Below are positions 5,248 to 24,678 of a DNA stretch of 34,443 bases, in pieces (the stretch's first letter is position 1; every line of letters begins with the position of its first letter). The position numbers and the translations under genes were made by a program. The stretch is from Bacteroidales bacterium (GTDB lineage Bacteria; Bacteroidota; Bacteroidia; Bacteroidales; VadinHA17): contig PLML01000236.1 of NCBI GenBank assembly GCA_003141525.1, positions 1 to 34,443 on the forward strand, read 5' to 3'. The notes beneath the pieces are model-generated. The model had not been told where the DNA came from, did no database searches, and saw nothing but the letters and a program-made list of their open reading frames with translations.

Positions 5248-5282
5248 GAGGATCACAGTGAGCGGAGCGAACTGTAATCCTC
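5248..5282 (-). repeat. Palindrome with the conserved loop TTCG(A/G)CT(C/T)CGCTCA, isolated copy
   Basis: GAGGATCACAG and CTGTAATCCTC form a stem with one mismatch around TGAGCGGAGCGAA. Read on the minus strand, the loop is TTCGCTCCGCTCA, one base shorter than the core seen four times around the GIY-YIG gene at 21.6-22.1 kb. The stem sequence differs between copies while the loop is kept. Confidence 0.65.
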
Positions 5283-18812: not shown

Positions 18813-21590
18813 ATGACAAATCAGAATCCCGAACAACTAGCACGCGATAATATTGACAAACAATTAATTGCCTGTGGCTGGCAAATTCAGAATAAGAAAG
18901 AGATCAATTTGAATGCCGGGATAGGTGTGGCAATCAGGGAATATCAAACGGATAGCGGACCTGCTGACTATTTACTTTTCGTCGATAAACAACCTGTAGG
19001 AATAATTGAGGCAAAAAAAGTAGAAGAAGGTTTTCGTCTTACAGATTATGAAGAACAATCCAGAGATTACGCGGAAAGCAAACTCAAATATCTGAATAAT
19101 GATCCTCTACCTTTTGTATATGAAAGTACAGGTGAACTAACTCGTTTTACAGATTACCGAGATCCAAAACCGCGATCGAGACCAACTTTTACTTTCCATA
19201 AACCTGAAACATTCCGTGAATGGCAGAAAAAGGAGAAGACTCTCAGAAAAAGATTATTGGATTTACCTCTATTGGCAACATCTGGATTAAGAGACTGCCA
19301 GATTGTAGCGATCCGGAACCTGGAAAAATCGTTCAAAGAGAACAGACCTCGTGCTCTGATCCAGATGGCTACCGGATCAGGTAAGACATATACTGCTATA
19401 ACCTCAATATACAGACTCCTGAAATTCAGCGGCGCTAAACGGATTCTGTTCCTTGTCGACACACGAAACCTTGGAGAACAGGCAGAACAGGAATTTATGG
19501 CTTATACACCGGTAGACGATAACCGGAAGTTCACGGAACTCTACAATGTGCAAAGACTTAGAAGCAGTTACGTTGCTTCTGACAGCCAGGTTTGTATCAG
19601 TACAATACAGCGATTGTATTCTATATTAAAAGGAGAGGAACTTCCTGAAGAGGCTGAAGAAACAAATCCGGGTGAAATTAACTGGCATAAACGAGAACCG
19701 GTTCCAGTTGTATATAATGCGAAGCTGCCGGTTGAGTTTTTTGATTTTGTGGTTATTGATGAATGCCATCGCAGTATTTACAACTTGTGGAAACAGGTTC
19801 TTGAATATTTCGATACTTTTCAGATCGGACTGACTGCGACACCCGATAACAGGACATTTGGATATTTCAGACAGAATATTGTTAGTGAATACACTCATCA
19901 GCAGGCGGTTGTCGACGGGGTTAATGTCGGATATAATATCTTCCTCATTGAAACCGATATCACAAAGAAGGGTTCAAAGATCTGGAAAGGAGAATTTGTT
20001 GATCACCGAGAAAAACTAACCCGTAAAAAACGCTGGGACCAACTCGATGAGGATCTGGTCTATTCAAACAAGAAACTTGATGATGAGGTTGTTAATCCAA
20101 ATCAGATCAGAACAATAATCAGAAATTTTAAAGACCATCTACCTGATATGTTTCCTGAAAGATTCTCAGAAAATGGTGAATTTGAAGTTCCCAAAACTCT
20201 GATTTTTGCAAAGACAGATTCTCACGCAGATGATATTATTCAAATAGTCCGGGAGGAGTTTGCCGAAGAAAATAAGTTTTGCAAAAAACTGACCTATAAA
20301 TCCGAAGAAGATACTAAATCTGTTCTTGCCCAGTTTCGAAATGCCTATCATCCACGTATAGCAGTTACAGTAGATATGATTGCTACCGGTACCGATGTGA
20401 AACCTCTCGAATGTCTTCTGTTTATGCGCGATGTGAAAAGCCGGAATTATTTTGAACAGATGAAGGGTCGTGGCACACGAACTATCTCACTTGATGATCT
20501 TAGGAAAGTCAGCCCCTCAGCCAGATTTACGAAAGACCATTTTGTAATCGTTGATGCTGTTGGGGTCACCAAAAGCCTTAAGACCGACAGCCGGCCACTT
20601 GAAAAGAAACCAGGAATTCCGCTGAAGGATTTGCTGGGCGCAATTGCAGTGGGGGTACGTGATGATGATCTATTTTCTTCGATTGCCAACAGACTGATCA
20701 GACTTGAGAAGCAGATTACTGAAAAAGAGAAAAATATTTTTTTCGCGAAGGCCAAAGGTAAAACCATAATCCAGGTTGTAAAGGAACTTCTCAATGCTTA
20801 TGATCCTGATATAATTGAAGACATCAGGTTAAAAGTAGAATCGGAATATGCTTCTGCTTCTCCTGCAGATAAAGCGGATGAATTAATCCGCAGACGAACG
20901 GAATTAATTGAAACTGCAGCTTCAACCTTTACCGGGGACCTCAATACGTATATTGAAAATGTCAGGAAAGCGCATGAACAGATAATCGACGACATAAACC
21001 GAGACAAGATCATTTTTGCAGGGTGGGATAGAGACAATAAATCAAATGCTGAAGAACTGGTCGCTGGTTTTAGAAGCTGGGTCGAAACTCACAAGAATGA
21101 AATTGTTGCATTGCAGATATTTTATAACCAGCCGCTCCGAAGACGCGAGATTACTTTTAAAATGATGAAGGAACTTGCAGATCATCTGATTTCAGACAAA
21201 CCTCTCCTGTCGCCCATGCATGTCTGGCAGGCATACAGTCAGCTTGAAAAAGTAACAGGGTCACCAAAAAATGAAATGATCGCTCTTATTTCGCTAATAA
21301 GGAAAATAACATGTATTGACAAGGATCTTACCAGCTATGATAAAACAGTTGATAAAAATTTCCGGGAGTGGGTATTTAAAAAGCAAGCAGGGACTCTTAA
21401 GTTTAATGATAATCAGATGAGCTGGCTTAGAATGATAAAAGATCATATTGCAACAAGCGTTCACCTTGACTATGACGACCTCGGATATACACCTTTCGAT
21501 GCCCTCGGGGGAAAAGGTAAGATGTGGCAGTTGTTTGGAGAAAAGACTGAAGAGATTATCAGTGAGTTGAATGAGGCGCTGGCAGCATAG
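18813..21590 (+). CDS. hsdR: Type I restriction enzyme R subunit (HsdR)
   Basis: HsdR is the translocase and nuclease subunit of type I restriction enzymes, which cut unmodified DNA at a distance from the recognition site. The 925-aa protein opens with the PD-(D/E)XK nuclease: Asp52 in SGPADYLLFV and Glu66-x-Lys68 in GIIEAKKV. The SF2 motor follows: Walker A MATGSGKT at 185-192, DECH at 316-319, TATP at 341-344, and QMKGRGTR near residue 550 as motif VI. The helical C-terminal part resembles the EcoEI-type R subunit. All motifs are intact. hsdS and hsdM lie downstream on the same strand, separated by inserted genes. A hairpin of the conserved-loop family overlaps the stop codon. Confidence 0.95.
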   Translation: MTNQNPEQLARDNIDKQLIACGWQIQNKKEINLNAGIGVAIREYQTDSGPADYLLFVDKQPVGIIEAKKVEEGFRLTDYEEQSRDYAESKLKYLNNDPLPFVYESTGELTRFTDYRDPKPRSRPTFTFHKPETFREWQKKEKTLRKRLLDLPLLATSGLRDCQIVAIRNLEKSFKENRPRALIQMATGSGKTYTAITSIYRLLKFSGAKRILFLVDTRNLGEQAEQEFMAYTPVDDNRKFTELYNVQRLRSSYVASDSQVCISTIQRLYSILKGEELPEEAEETNPGEINWHKREPVPVVYNAKLPVEFFDFVVIDECHRSIYNLWKQVLEYFDTFQIGLTATPDNRTFGYFRQNIVSEYTHQQAVVDGVNVGYNIFLIETDITKKGSKIWKGEFVDHREKLTRKKRWDQLDEDLVYSNKKLDDEVVNPNQIRTIIRNFKDHLPDMFPERFSENGEFEVPKTLIFAKTDSHADDIIQIVREEFAEENKFCKKLTYKSEEDTKSVLAQFRNAYHPRIAVTVDMIATGTDVKPLECLLFMRDVKSRNYFEQMKGRGTRTISLDDLRKVSPSARFTKDHFVIVDAVGVTKSLKTDSRPLEKKPGIPLKDLLGAIAVGVRDDDLFSSIANRLIRLEKQITEKEKNIFFAKAKGKTIIQVVKELLNAYDPDIIEDIRLKVESEYASASPADKADELIRRRTELIETAASTFTGDLNTYIENVRKAHEQIIDDINRDKIIFAGWDRDNKSNAEELVAGFRSWVETHKNEIVALQIFYNQPLRRREITFKMMKELADHLISDKPLLSPMHVWQAYSQLEKVTGSPKNEMIALISLIRKITCIDKDLTSYDKTVDKNFREWVFKKQAGTLKFNDNQMSWLRMIKDHIATSVHLDYDDLGYTPFDALGGKGKMWQLFGEKTEEIISELNEALAA

Positions 21591-21658
21591 CTTCGGCTCC
21601 GCTCAGCTATCAGATTTGGTAGTTAAGCGAATCTGGCACTTCGACTTCGCTCAGTGCC
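21587..21658 (+). repeat. Two hairpins with conserved loop TTCG(A/G)CT(C/T)CGCTCA, upstream of the GIY-YIG gene
   Basis: Hairpin A: ATAGC/GCTAT around TTCGGCTCCGCTCA (21592-21605), overlapping the hsdR stop. Hairpin B: GGCAC/GTGCC around TTCGACTTCGCTCA (21640-21653). Loops agree at 12 of 14 positions while the stems are unrelated. Between them CAGATT and AATCTG can pair as well. Both lie within 125 bp of the GIY-YIG start. Confidence 0.75.
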
Positions 21659-21709
21659 TGGTATGGTGGGTTAACTCAGTCAAAGCCACTAATAAAATTA
21701 AGTAAGAAT

Positions 21710-22015
21710 ATGAAAGGTTACATGTATATATTACTTTGTTCCAATGGTCATTACTACACCGGTAGTACTAACGATTTGGAAAGGAGGCTGATTGAACATC
21801 AAAATGGAGAAGGTGCAAATTTTACAAGAAAGCATTTGCCGGTTGAATTAGTTTATTATGAGGAGTTTGACAGGATTGATGATGCTTTCTACCGTGAAAA
21901 GCAGGTCCAGGGATGGAGCAGAAAGAAAAAGGAGGCCTTGATTAAGGGTGAAACTAATACACTTCATGAGTTGTCGGAATGTAGGAATAAAACGAATTAT
22001 AGAAACGCTCCCTAA
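21710..22015 (+). CDS. GIY-YIG nuclease domain protein (UPF0213/YhbQ-like)
   Basis: The 101-aa protein is a single GIY-YIG domain: YMYILLCSNGHYYTGST carries the GIY and YIG-type strands (here YMY and YTG). Next comes DLERRLIEHQNG with the conserved Arg, and the metal-ligand Glu in FYREKQVQGWSRKKKEALI. Proteins of this size form the UPF0213 group, of unknown cellular role. The gene sits between hsdR and the restriction-specificity part of the operon, flanked on both sides by palindromes with the loop TTCGACTCCGCTCA. Its stop codon is directly followed by the ATG of the next frame. An association between gene and repeats is plausible but unproven. Confidence 0.82.
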   Translation: MKGYMYILLCSNGHYYTGSTNDLERRLIEHQNGEGANFTRKHLPVELVYYEEFDRIDDAFYREKQVQGWSRKKKEALIKGETNTLHELSECRNKTNYRNAP

Positions 22016-22023
22016 ATGTTCCC

Positions 22024-22072
22024 TTCGACTCCGCTCAATCACCCTTTCTGGACGTCGAGCGAAGCCGAGACG
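22024..22072. repeat. Inverted pair of conserved-loop cores downstream of the GIY-YIG gene
   Basis: TTCGACTCCGCTCA at 22024-22037 and CGAGCGAAGCCGAG at 22056-22069 are inverted and can pair at 10 of 12 central positions over an 18-base loop. The second core also forms its own small hairpin with stem CGTC/GACG. The first 20 codons of the downstream open frame are translated from this repeat, so it appears to have landed at or near the deletion end of the TcmP gene. Confidence 0.7.
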
Positions 22073-22075
22073 CGG

Positions 22076-22375
22076 ATGTTAACAAAGAAATTTCAAATTA
22101 AAGAATTGAATAATTACCCTATAATTAAATACTTTTATGAAAAAAAAACATATAATTCACTTTTTGGCGAAACGGAAATTGTCAGGAAAGTTAGCAGTCC
22201 AATTGAGAAGATTGCTGAATTATATGCAATACAATTGAAAACGATTTGGAAGTATGTAACAGAAAAGCCTTTACGGTTGGAAAATTCGAGAGGCGTTCCA
22301 ATTTTTCATTTTATTTTTGCTTCAAATAACAAGTTCGCGACAAAAATCGCCGGACAAATAATAAAATCCCGATAA
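22076..22375 (+). pseudogene. TcmP (three-Cys-motif partner protein), C-terminal remnant
   Basis: From the ATG at 22076 about 99 aa remain. The end matches the C-terminal part of TcmP proteins: IEKIAELYAIQLKTIWKYVT, then RGVPIFHFIFASNNKFATKIAGQ. A complete TcmP has roughly 300 or more residues, so the N-terminal two thirds are missing. The open frame extends upstream to 22016 only through translated palindrome sequence (MFPSTPLNHPF). The stop is one base before the start of the DUF5131/Gp37-like gene, which is the known partner of TcmP, so the original pair order is kept. The function is probably lost; the deletion seems to coincide with the repeat. Confidence 0.7.
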
Positions 22376-22376
22376 T

Positions 22377-22841
22377 ATGGCCCGAACCAAAATAGAATGG
22401 ACCGAATCAACCTGGAATCCGATAACAGGTTGTACAAAGATTTCTGCTGGTTGTAAGAACTATTATGATAAAGAAGGTTATCTTGAATGGACACATAATA
22501 TATGGATGGGAGTTACAGTTGAAGATAATACCGTTACAAAACGCATTGATTTACTGAGACAAACCGGGGCAAAAATCAAATTCCTGAGTTGTGAACCGTT
22601 ACTTACCGAAATCCCCGGAATAAATCTCACAGGTATTGACTGGGTTATTGTCGGAGGCGAAAGTGGAAGAATACCGCGCCCTGTAAAAGAAGAATGGGTT
22701 CTGGATATAAAAGATCAATGCCGGAAAGCAAATGTTGCGTTCTACTTTAAACAATGGGGTGGTACTAATAAAAAGAAAAATGGCAAATCACTCCAGGGGA
22801 AACATTATACAGAAATGCCAGAAATAAACAAGTATGTTTAA
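22377..22841 (+). pseudogene. Three-Cys-motif protein (phage Gp37/Gp68-like, DUF5131) with an internal deletion
   Basis: The 154-aa frame begins like a normal member, MARTKIEWTESTWNPITGCT, and its C-terminal half is also normal: NIWMGVTVEDNTVTKRID, KFLSCEPLL, WVIVGGESG, and FYFKQWGGTNKKK. The family motif C-x6-C-x2-C should have cysteines at 19, 26 and 29; here residue 29 is Tyr (GCKNYYDK). About 80 residues that usually follow (the CYAERMA and NSMSDLF regions) are missing, with the reading frame preserved. Without the third cysteine an iron-sulfur cluster of the radical-SAM type could not form. The gene follows the TcmP remnant by one base, and hsdS starts immediately after its stop. Confidence 0.75.
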
Positions 22842-24219: not shown

Positions 24220-24678
24220 ATGGCCGATACATATACAAAATTATTCATTCATGCGGTCTTTGCCGTCAAAGGCAGAGAAAATATCATCTCCCTGAGATGG
24301 AAAGATGGTCTGTACAGATATATAACAGGTATCGTTACTAATAATGATCAGAAACTAATGATAATCAATGGCATGCCTGATCATATCCACCTTCTGTTGG
24401 GCATTAAACCCACTATGGCTTTATCTGATCTGATCCGAGATATAAAAGCCAACTCATCCCGTTTTATCAACGAACAGAGATGGGTTCAGGGACGTTTTGA
24501 ATGGCAGCATGGATTCGGAGCCTTCACGTGTAATCCTGCTGAATTGGATACAATAATCAATTATATCAAAAACCAGGAAGAACATCATAAGATGAAGAGT
24601 TTCAAAGAGGAATATGTTAATTTGCTTAATTATAATAATATAGACTATAAAACCGAATATCTGTTTGATGATGTTTAA
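24220..24678 (+). CDS. REP-associated tyrosine transposase (RAYT, IS200/IS605 TnpA-like)
   Basis: The 152-aa protein is a single-domain HUH nuclease of the Y1 transposase superfamily: PDHIHLLLG with the HUH pair His55 and His57, and a candidate catalytic Tyr115 in DTIINYIKNQEEHH. GRFEWQHGFGAFTCNPAELD precedes it, as in Bacteroidota RAYT/TnpA proteins. Proteins of this kind act on single-stranded palindromic ends. Here the gene is framed by three REP palindromes on the left and three inverted ones on the right, which defines a RAYT-REP unit. It is inserted between hsdS and hsdM. The ribosome-binding site is within the third REP, so folding of that REP could lower translation. All key residues are intact. 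Confidence 0.88.
   Translation: MADTYTKLFIHAVFAVKGRENIISLRWKDGLYRYITGIVTNNDQKLMIINGMPDHIHLLLGIKPTMALSDLIRDIKANSSRFINEQRWVQGRFEWQHGFGAFTCNPAELDTIINYIKNQEEHHKMKSFKEEYVNLLNYNNIDYKTEYLFDDV

Follow-up and report, generated by a model that had tools for sequence, protein, structure and literature searches.

Small nucleases of the GIY-YIG fold termed Ssn, reportedly described in 2025 by Chenal, Veyrier and co-workers in Nature Communications, are said to cleave single-stranded DNA at repeats, in Neisseria as well as in other organisms. In this family a small GIY-YIG protein is linked to a repeat that lies around genes and serves as its target, and the many homologs differ in their targets. Here we describe a comparable pairing in a 34,443-nucleotide contig of a Bacteroidales bacterium (PLML01000236.1, the whole of which is hereafter called the window), analysed within its source genome of 4.82 Mb, where a short GIY-YIG nuclease gene is surrounded by small hairpins. 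We take this nuclease and its repeats to fit, or to be close to, the Ssn family; across its relatives the gene is tied to specific, dispersed repeats, which is an Ssn trait, and in the window genome itself they are hardly dispersed. The hairpin classes, the match between protein tail and hairpin tip, the GNA-type tip and the flanking direct repeats presented below are not known to us from the Ssn work, though some of them may be there. A text search of the literature found no paper with the hairpin core in any of six spellings, and among the matches listed no title or abstract opening pointed to a pairing of a GIY-YIG gene with a hairpin repeat; most subscription papers lay outside these searches. 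The pairing principle has probably already been published for other lineages; as far as we checked, the additions made here are the hairpin classes, the GNA reading and the tail rule.

In the RAYT-REP system, also called REPtron, an enzyme gene is likewise flanked by its own short hairpins, arranged in opposed pairs and with dispersed copies (PMC3733652). RAYT-REP employs a Y1 transposase and a GTAG tag, whereas the fold here is GIY-YIG, and no GTAG tag was seen by eye at the hairpin foot when the base composition of both flanks (14 bases each) was compared over 404, 157 and 89 near copies. By analogy, the window system may work as RAYT-REP does, an enzyme with its own hairpin repeat, on another enzyme fold. 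The CGTC-tagged REP superfamily comprises short hairpins in five phyla including Bacteroidetes, which are said to “apparently lack a dedicated transposase”; the dRS3 repeat of Neisseria is counted among them (PMC3733652). Dispersed copies in one genome, G072, start CGTC-ATGCT and hold the full CGTC, whereas the gene-flanking hairpins of class A (see below) show C in 45% and G in 70% at positions -8 and -7, not the full tag. The dRS3/Nf1 consensus, read on the other strand, likewise has a C-GCA-G step (PMC3046118).

Judged from sequence comparison, we regard it as probable that the gene encodes a small GIY-YIG endonuclease which recognises a short DNA hairpin, nicks one strand of it when single-stranded, and travels as a unit with arrays of such hairpins; a hairpin-specific single-strand nuclease together with its repeat family is the most likely description of the pair. 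To the window we added the best 80 of 460 relatives from a scan of public genome contigs (set 1), giving 81 loci, which by record titles are mostly from Bacteroidota but also include Calditrichota, Ignavibacteria, delta-proteobacteria and a Treponema metagenome-assembled genome. Strict hairpin cores of three classes, A, B and C, lie within 600 bp of the gene in 81/81 loci, at a density of 8.21 per kb at 0-250 bp, 1.64 at 250-500 bp and 0-0.35 past 1 kb, and in the 80 homologous loci the core was found 296 times versus 0 for a reversed-pattern control. Hairpins lie on both sides of the gene in 47 of these loci, only downstream in 28 and only upstream in 5, with opposed -+ pairs as the commonest arrangement. 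Control loci were drawn from nine genomes holding the repeat: class A, B or C cores flank none of 12 long GIY-YIG genes, and neither these cores nor the shortened form come within 600 bp of any of 20 Y1_Tnp loci (two being pieces of one gene). Six of eight other short GIY-YIG loci are unflanked as well, the remaining two holding one class A plus one class B copy (L093) and four copies of a shortened form of the core (L085). The nuclease-repeat partnership with a fold other than that of RAYT, and the flanking of the gene by the core, as proposed in the sequence-only reading, are thus supported across the relatives.

In the window the gene lies at 21710-22015 on the plus strand, and the sequence-only reading had placed four copies of one core around it. 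An exact TTCGRCTYCGCTCA occurs at three sites, 21592-21605, 21640-21653 and 22024-22037; with one mismatch permitted, 100 shuffles gave a mean of 0.03 and a largest count of 1, at least three being reached in none. The complement of the proposed core, GAGCGNAGYCGA, occurs four times, all within 21500-22100 and flanking the gene (21593-21604, 21641-21652 and 22025-22036 on the minus strand; 22057-22068 on the plus strand), and not once in 200 Markov-1 simulated windows. The fourth copy, at 22053-22072, has in common just the central 12 bases (GAGCGAAGCCGA on the plus strand), with a C-G closing pair in place of the T-A of the others, and therefore the common unit is GAGCGNAGYCGA; the count of four holds for this shorter unit only. 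Hairpin 1 (21587-21610, minus strand), which overlaps the stop codon of hsdR, reads T-GAGCGGAGCCGA-A with a GNA tip of class A on an ATAGC/GCTAT stem; hairpin 2 (21635-21658, minus) reads T-GAGCGAAGTCGA-A, also of class A, on GGCAC/GTGCC; and hairpin 4 (22053-22072, plus) has the core GAGCGAAGCCGA closed by C-G on CGTC/GACG. Stems of 4-5 bp are thus present on three of the four copies, as proposed, but copy 3 (22024-22037, minus; T-GAGCGGAGTCGA-A) has no pairing flanks and is stemless. In the whole genome, exact TTCGRCTYCGCTCA was counted four times, three of them at the GIY-YIG gene, and the wider pattern TTCGRCTNCGCTCA likewise gave four matches, so that the repeat is concentrated at the gene and hardly spread. 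What had been taken as a fifth copy, at 5248-5282 on the plus strand, is GAGCGGAG-CGA on a long, strong stem, one base shorter and without the Y base discussed below. Because this base is missing and the shortened form was absent from the 600 bp around each of the 80 homologous genes (it occurred once further out), we treat the site as a related but, by its sequence, distinct repeat and not the gene-flanking type; the four shortened copies at L085 adjoin a different short GIY-YIG gene. Genome-wide, GAGCGNAGYGAA sites numbered 5 versus 2 for the reversed control.

The stems of the gene-flanking hairpins vary and are maintained as pairs. In 281 class A copies collected with no stem demanded, pairing at positions 1-6 lies above all 200 partner shuffles (observed versus shuffled, 0.90/0.50 at position 2, 0.91/0.32 at 3, 0.89/0.40 at 4, 0.74/0.48 at 5 and 0.57/0.30 at 6), with no excess at position 7 and little or none further out; taking one copy per locus gave the same picture. 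Five perfect pairs are formed in 275/412 near copies, with 42 distinct 5-mers. Stem pairs 2-6 therefore covary, and the covariation that the sequence-only reading had asked for stands far above shuffled expectation. That reading had also seen a conserved loop displayed on any stem: the stems do vary, but the conserved part is a structured tip whose inside changes between loci along with the protein tail. A single universal loop was rejected, given that the proposed core lies within 600 bp of the gene in 55/80 loci; each of the 25 loci without it carries a strict core, which is either another palindrome (TGAGCYTGYCGAA, TGAGGNNCTCGAA) or belongs to class A but differs at its edges.

On the hairpin strand the conserved tip reads GAG-[G-Y/C-G/GNA]-CGA. 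In class A, the complement of the supposed loop carries GCGNAGY, which is a GNA mini-hairpin: on the GAG..CGA strand the tip reads GC-GNA-GY, with a G-C or G-T pair, a C-G pair and a GNA turn, where the N position is free and the base before CGA (Y) is C in 155, T in 124 and A in 2 of 281 copies. This Y variation keeps the G-C or G-T pair on the GAG..CGA strand only, and therefore that strand is likely the functional one, so far as base pairing can tell. The three tip classes are C(GNA)G (A), C(YT)G (B) and G(NN)C (C), with a tip closing pair of C-G in classes A and B and of G-C in class C, which on sequence grounds reads as a compensatory change of the tip pair. An outer GA/GA step is conserved across all classes and may form sheared G.A pairs. 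The conserved, structured tip is thus composed of the closing pair, the GA/GA step, the G-Y pair, a C-G or G-C pair and a turn of 2-3 nucleotides. GNA and GNNA mini-hairpins with G-C pairs are extraordinarily stable and resistant to heat and nucleases, with GCGAAGC melting at 78 C (PMC4686876). The N and R positions of our repeat fit the GNA mini-hairpin, among the most stable small DNA structures described, and this fit may explain how a target of this kind would work on DNA in single-stranded form. Some homologs whose tail holds KKIWKK sit beside a longer hairpin, GAGTAG...CGTATCGA, with an inner stem of its own in 6/8 loci (L165, L166, L167, L169, L173 and L177; L176 has a shorter form, and it was not seen in L175 and L181), possibly a fourth tip class.

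The 101-residue protein matches Pfam PF01541 over residues 2-74 with 66.1 bits against a cut-off of 22.6, as the earlier annotation of the gene had it. Y6, Y16, R26 and E63 are invariant across 47 aligned homologs; these are the catalytic Tyr, Arg and Glu residues of GIY-YIG enzymes. The nearest solved structures are the UPF0213 proteins BH0048 (1zg2, E 2.5e-14) and EF2693 (1ywl, E 2.2e-13) by sequence, and the same by fold; the structure listings name no repeat partner for them, and no further search was made. Slx1, a far relative with the same fold, appears among the next matches in complexes “processing branched DNA” (6seh, Foldseek E 0.05). Slx1 has Slx4 as its partner, and what it recognises is a structure, not a class of sequence. 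Homologs of the window gene were found on plasmids in 2 records (42-48% identity) and in no phage at E 1e-15.

The window protein ends in the tail LHELSECRNKTNYRN, which contains a Cys-x-Asn motif, and the class of the hairpin tip follows this part of the protein. A second set of 80 regions was taken around GIY-YIG matches in 395 same-phylum genomes, roughly down the E-value list and omitting partial matches (most with stops) and some second matches; class labels in set 2 were given where two or more copies were present and the stem had 3 bp or more, whereas those of set 1 needed no stem. From the 161 proteins (81 + 80) we dropped five, namely L189, L206 and L223 (single copy), L178 (66 residues) and L167 (first 85 residues same as L165), leaving 156, from which identical proteins alone had been removed, so near relatives may persist within and between the sets. 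In leave-one-out nearest-neighbour prediction the tail (residues 78-101) gave the correct tip class for 144/156 proteins and the catalytic domain (residues 1-77) for 114/156; trained on set 1 and tested on set 2, they scored 40/48 and 26/48. The tail of about 24 residues therefore predicts the tip class, and the catalytic domain does so much less well. A Cys-x-Asn tail occurs in 87/88 class A loci (the exception is L224), 0/41 class B or C loci and 3/27 unclassed loci, these three bearing the GNA-like variants CGGAGA, CGTGAGT and CGTGAGC. The motif was spotted on set 1 and then checked on set 2, where it was present in 26/27 class A and 0/21 class B or C loci. That the tail changes together with the hairpin tip suggests that it reads the tip.

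Copies of the repeat across the 395 genomes point in the same direction, with a core total of 2272 versus 58 for the reversed control. The sequence-only reading had expected the core to be enriched in genomes with the gene, and this was found to a degree: copy number correlates with homolog strength (Spearman 0.31), with means of 12.1 and 16.7 copies in the two bins of strongest homologs, 4.8 and 5.8 in the weaker bins and 2.5 without a homolog. Five relatives of the same order agree: four lack a homolog and have no copies, and the fifth has a weak homolog and 3 copies. Plain presence or absence of the gene thus gives a moderate correlation only, and splitting by tip class is sharper. In this count, which used 66/70 genomes (four had no fetched tail), included near-gene copies and defined tails by the fetched loci alone, genomes with a matching tail had a median of 12 class A copies versus 1 (28 genomes, p=1.2e-4), 17 class B copies versus 2 (13 genomes, p=2.4e-5) and 22 class C copies versus 0 (8 genomes, p=2.9e-6), the class B and C tail patterns having been written after both sets had been seen. 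Forty genomes have a single tail class and three copies or more, and in 32 of them the commonest class is that of the tail.

Taken together, these observations suggest how the pair could operate. The hairpin strand would be the substrate, exposed as a single strand in a replication gap, a transcription bubble, a cruciform or incoming single-stranded DNA, and the tail would serve as the reading head for its tip. Cutting may then trigger recombination or copying, by which the hairpins would multiply and the unit of gene and hairpins would be moved or exchanged; the gene would move along with hairpin arrays, which lie mainly downstream, flank it on both sides in many loci and frequently form opposed pairs. 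REP-like hairpins sit in the intergenic DNA of many bacteria, and for the CGTC group no dedicated enzyme had been identified (PMC3733652); a candidate enzyme family now has a testable pairing rule. We also consider, more tentatively and as a possibility that we would not yet call probable, a tail-to-tip code in which one catalytic domain has repeatedly swapped or remodelled its C-terminal tail, each tail reading one tip class: Cys-x-Asn for C-GNA-G, LS[KR]N(Y) for C-YT-G, LAxAYRD or LS[KR]RK for G-NN-C and perhaps KKIWKK for GAGTAG...CGTATCGA. Under such a code these enzymes would be the missing partners of transposase-less hairpin repeats, including part of the CGTC REPs, and gene-plus-hairpin units would move between distant phyla. 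If the tail reads the tip, the hairpin specificity of these small nucleases could be exchanged, and they would offer a case of coevolution between a repeat and its enzyme.

Several observations weigh against a hairpin-specific nuclease with its own repeat family. The window genome is nearly without copies away from the GIY-YIG gene. Nearest-neighbour DNA folding shows no consistent preference for the hairpin strand and gives modest energies, in a model that may have no terms for GNA turns and tandem G.A pairs; since these energies fail to separate the strands, the argument for the functional strand comes from the Y position only. The structure model is confident for residues 1-79 but of low confidence in the tail, as might be expected if the tail took its fold on the target. 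On the domain tree of set 1 the class labels are somewhat more clustered than shuffled ones (15 changes versus a shuffled mean of 18.8, minimum 2), and an independent-pairs test with only 4 well-supported pairs gave on average 3.6 concordant and 0 discordant (p 0.125). The correlation of tail and tip in these sequences is very strong, and the count of independent tip-class switches is uncertain because the domain tree is poorly resolved and strict pairs number four. The commonest class differs from the tail class in 8/40 genomes. Many class A copies occur in genomes where protein, Pfam and profile searches found no short homolog (G002 with 195, G192 with 37, G279 with 21, G277 with 17 and G316 with 11), so the expected enrichment did not hold there, and others have class A copies with another tail only, as judged from fetched genes (G016 94, G011 65, G087 63, G109 52, G001 23 and G051 17). 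Fewer than 3 class A copies are present in 14/30 genomes with the strongest homologs (E<=1e-30), although some of these are flanked by hairpins of class B or C, as in G308, G312 and G314. The most copy-rich genome without a short homolog, G002, has its 195 class A copies split 98/97 by strand, no short GIY-YIG and no Y1_Tnp match, and its congener G359 has 0 copies; either the enzyme was lost from G002 or another enzyme spread the copies.

Other explanations of the same loci have to be set beside this one. The hairpins could be REPs of a RAYT or IS200-type transposase, with the GIY-YIG gene among them by chance, and REP pairs do resemble them, while Y1_Tnp genes occur in the window (24220-24678) and in 6/9 genomes searched. 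RAYT as the driver is disfavoured by the unflanked Y1_Tnp loci and by the repeat-rich genomes G002, G277 and G192, which lack a Y1_Tnp match, and the hairpin tip tracks the GIY-YIG tail, so we hold this explanation to be very improbable. The hairpins may instead terminate or attenuate transcription for a selfish gene that sits within operons, with selection on the RNA hairpin and not on a nuclease target. This would fit their presence within 600 bp downstream of the gene in 75/80 loci and within operons such as hsdR-hsdS, but opposed pairs are frequent, hairpins stand upstream as well as downstream in 47/80 loci, some genomes hold hundreds of copies (G371 has 212 of class B) and tip identity follows the protein tail; we consider it improbable. 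About as little weight goes to the idea that the hairpins are recombination hot spots at the borders of restriction-modification modules, used for gene shuffling, with the nuclease as bystander or helper. HsdR, HsdM or HsdS matches lie within about 5 kb in 18/80 set 1 loci; in L037 (5001-6713) and L051 (5001-6728) the nuclease frame continues without a stop into a Methylase_S (HsdS) protein, giving 571 and 576 residues; in L006 the unit follows hsdR and is itself followed by a second, diverged hsdR end; and in L142 (2583-3341) a Y1_Tnp gene follows hsdR, with a stretch like the last 38 HsdR residues recurring behind it. Set 1, however, was picked for its likeness to a gene that itself belongs to such an operon, the 18/80 is a raw count, and set 2, with regions about half the window length, gave 5/80; the link is strongest near the lineage of the window, and therefore we make no general claim for it.

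A further possibility, unlikely in our estimate yet deserving attention, is that gene and hairpins form a minimal mobile element with a long target duplication and the nuclease as transposition enzyme. Among 74 testable loci (7/81 had less than 120 bp beyond the hairpins), six show the whole unit enclosed by direct repeats of 25-48 bp, with scores of 20.6-36.2 versus at most 16.2 in 1480 mismatched pairs. In set 2, L156 has a repeat of 89 columns scoring 60.4 against a background maximum of 29.6; it alone was counted there, most of the nine best scores being unmasked hairpins of other classes. Empty sites are present in L145 and L147, relatives of the window operon, where hsdR overlaps the start of an intact 295-residue tcmP-like gene with no unit between. 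Against this, the repeats are imperfect and range in length from 25 to 89, and 68/74 loci have none above background; those of L006 and L005 look like what is left of a different allele of the same gene and not like recent duplications, and that of L036 is possibly a repeated terminator. Sixteen loci with a hairpin pair but no gene, several of them overlapping, showed no clear target duplication, the top score being a short tandem motif. We know of no DNA-joining reaction for GIY-YIG enzymes, which counts against this explanation as well. The flanking direct repeats may stem either from target duplication or from an exchange of alleles.

In the window the hairpin unit spans from the stop codon of hsdR (18813-21590, plus strand; EcoEI_R_C, ResIII and HSDR_N domains) to what remains of a tcmP-like gene; next come a DUF5131 gene, hsdS, a Y1_Tnp gene and hsdM. 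The end of hsdR looks like a point of insertion or exchange, judging also from the Y1_Tnp gene in L142 and the GIY-YIG unit in L006. The remnant (22016-22375, plus), presumably of the gene named tcmP, matches PADLOC PDC-M41A at profile positions 191-278 of 281 and has no Pfam match; its first codons read copies 3 and 4 of the repeat. Just the C-terminal third of the tcmP-like gene is kept, adjoining hairpin 4, and the next gene, DUF5131, lacks an internal stretch (22016-22841 for the two together); these losses are either real deletions or assembly faults. The IS200-like Y1_Tnp gene at 24220-24678, between hsdS and hsdM, has 0 hairpin cores within 600 bp (L125).

Three more short GIY-YIG genes are present in the window genome (L234, L235 and L236), and no GAG..CGA hairpin with a 4-bp stem was found within 1.5 kb of them. 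The loci L085 and L093 belong to a second subgroup of short GIY-YIG genes with an NPxW tail, lying beside GTCATGC...GCATCTC palindromes in G072, and one of these genes has an internal stop. Many homologs among L003-L082 apparently end, by eye, in translated hairpin sequence such as FDSAQ or LSEVE, so that C-termini vary with the repeats. In one genome, two tandem triplets of short GIY-YIG genes were observed, with a spacing of 317 and 323 bp (L083, L091 and L097; G132:C1:1384667-1385513).

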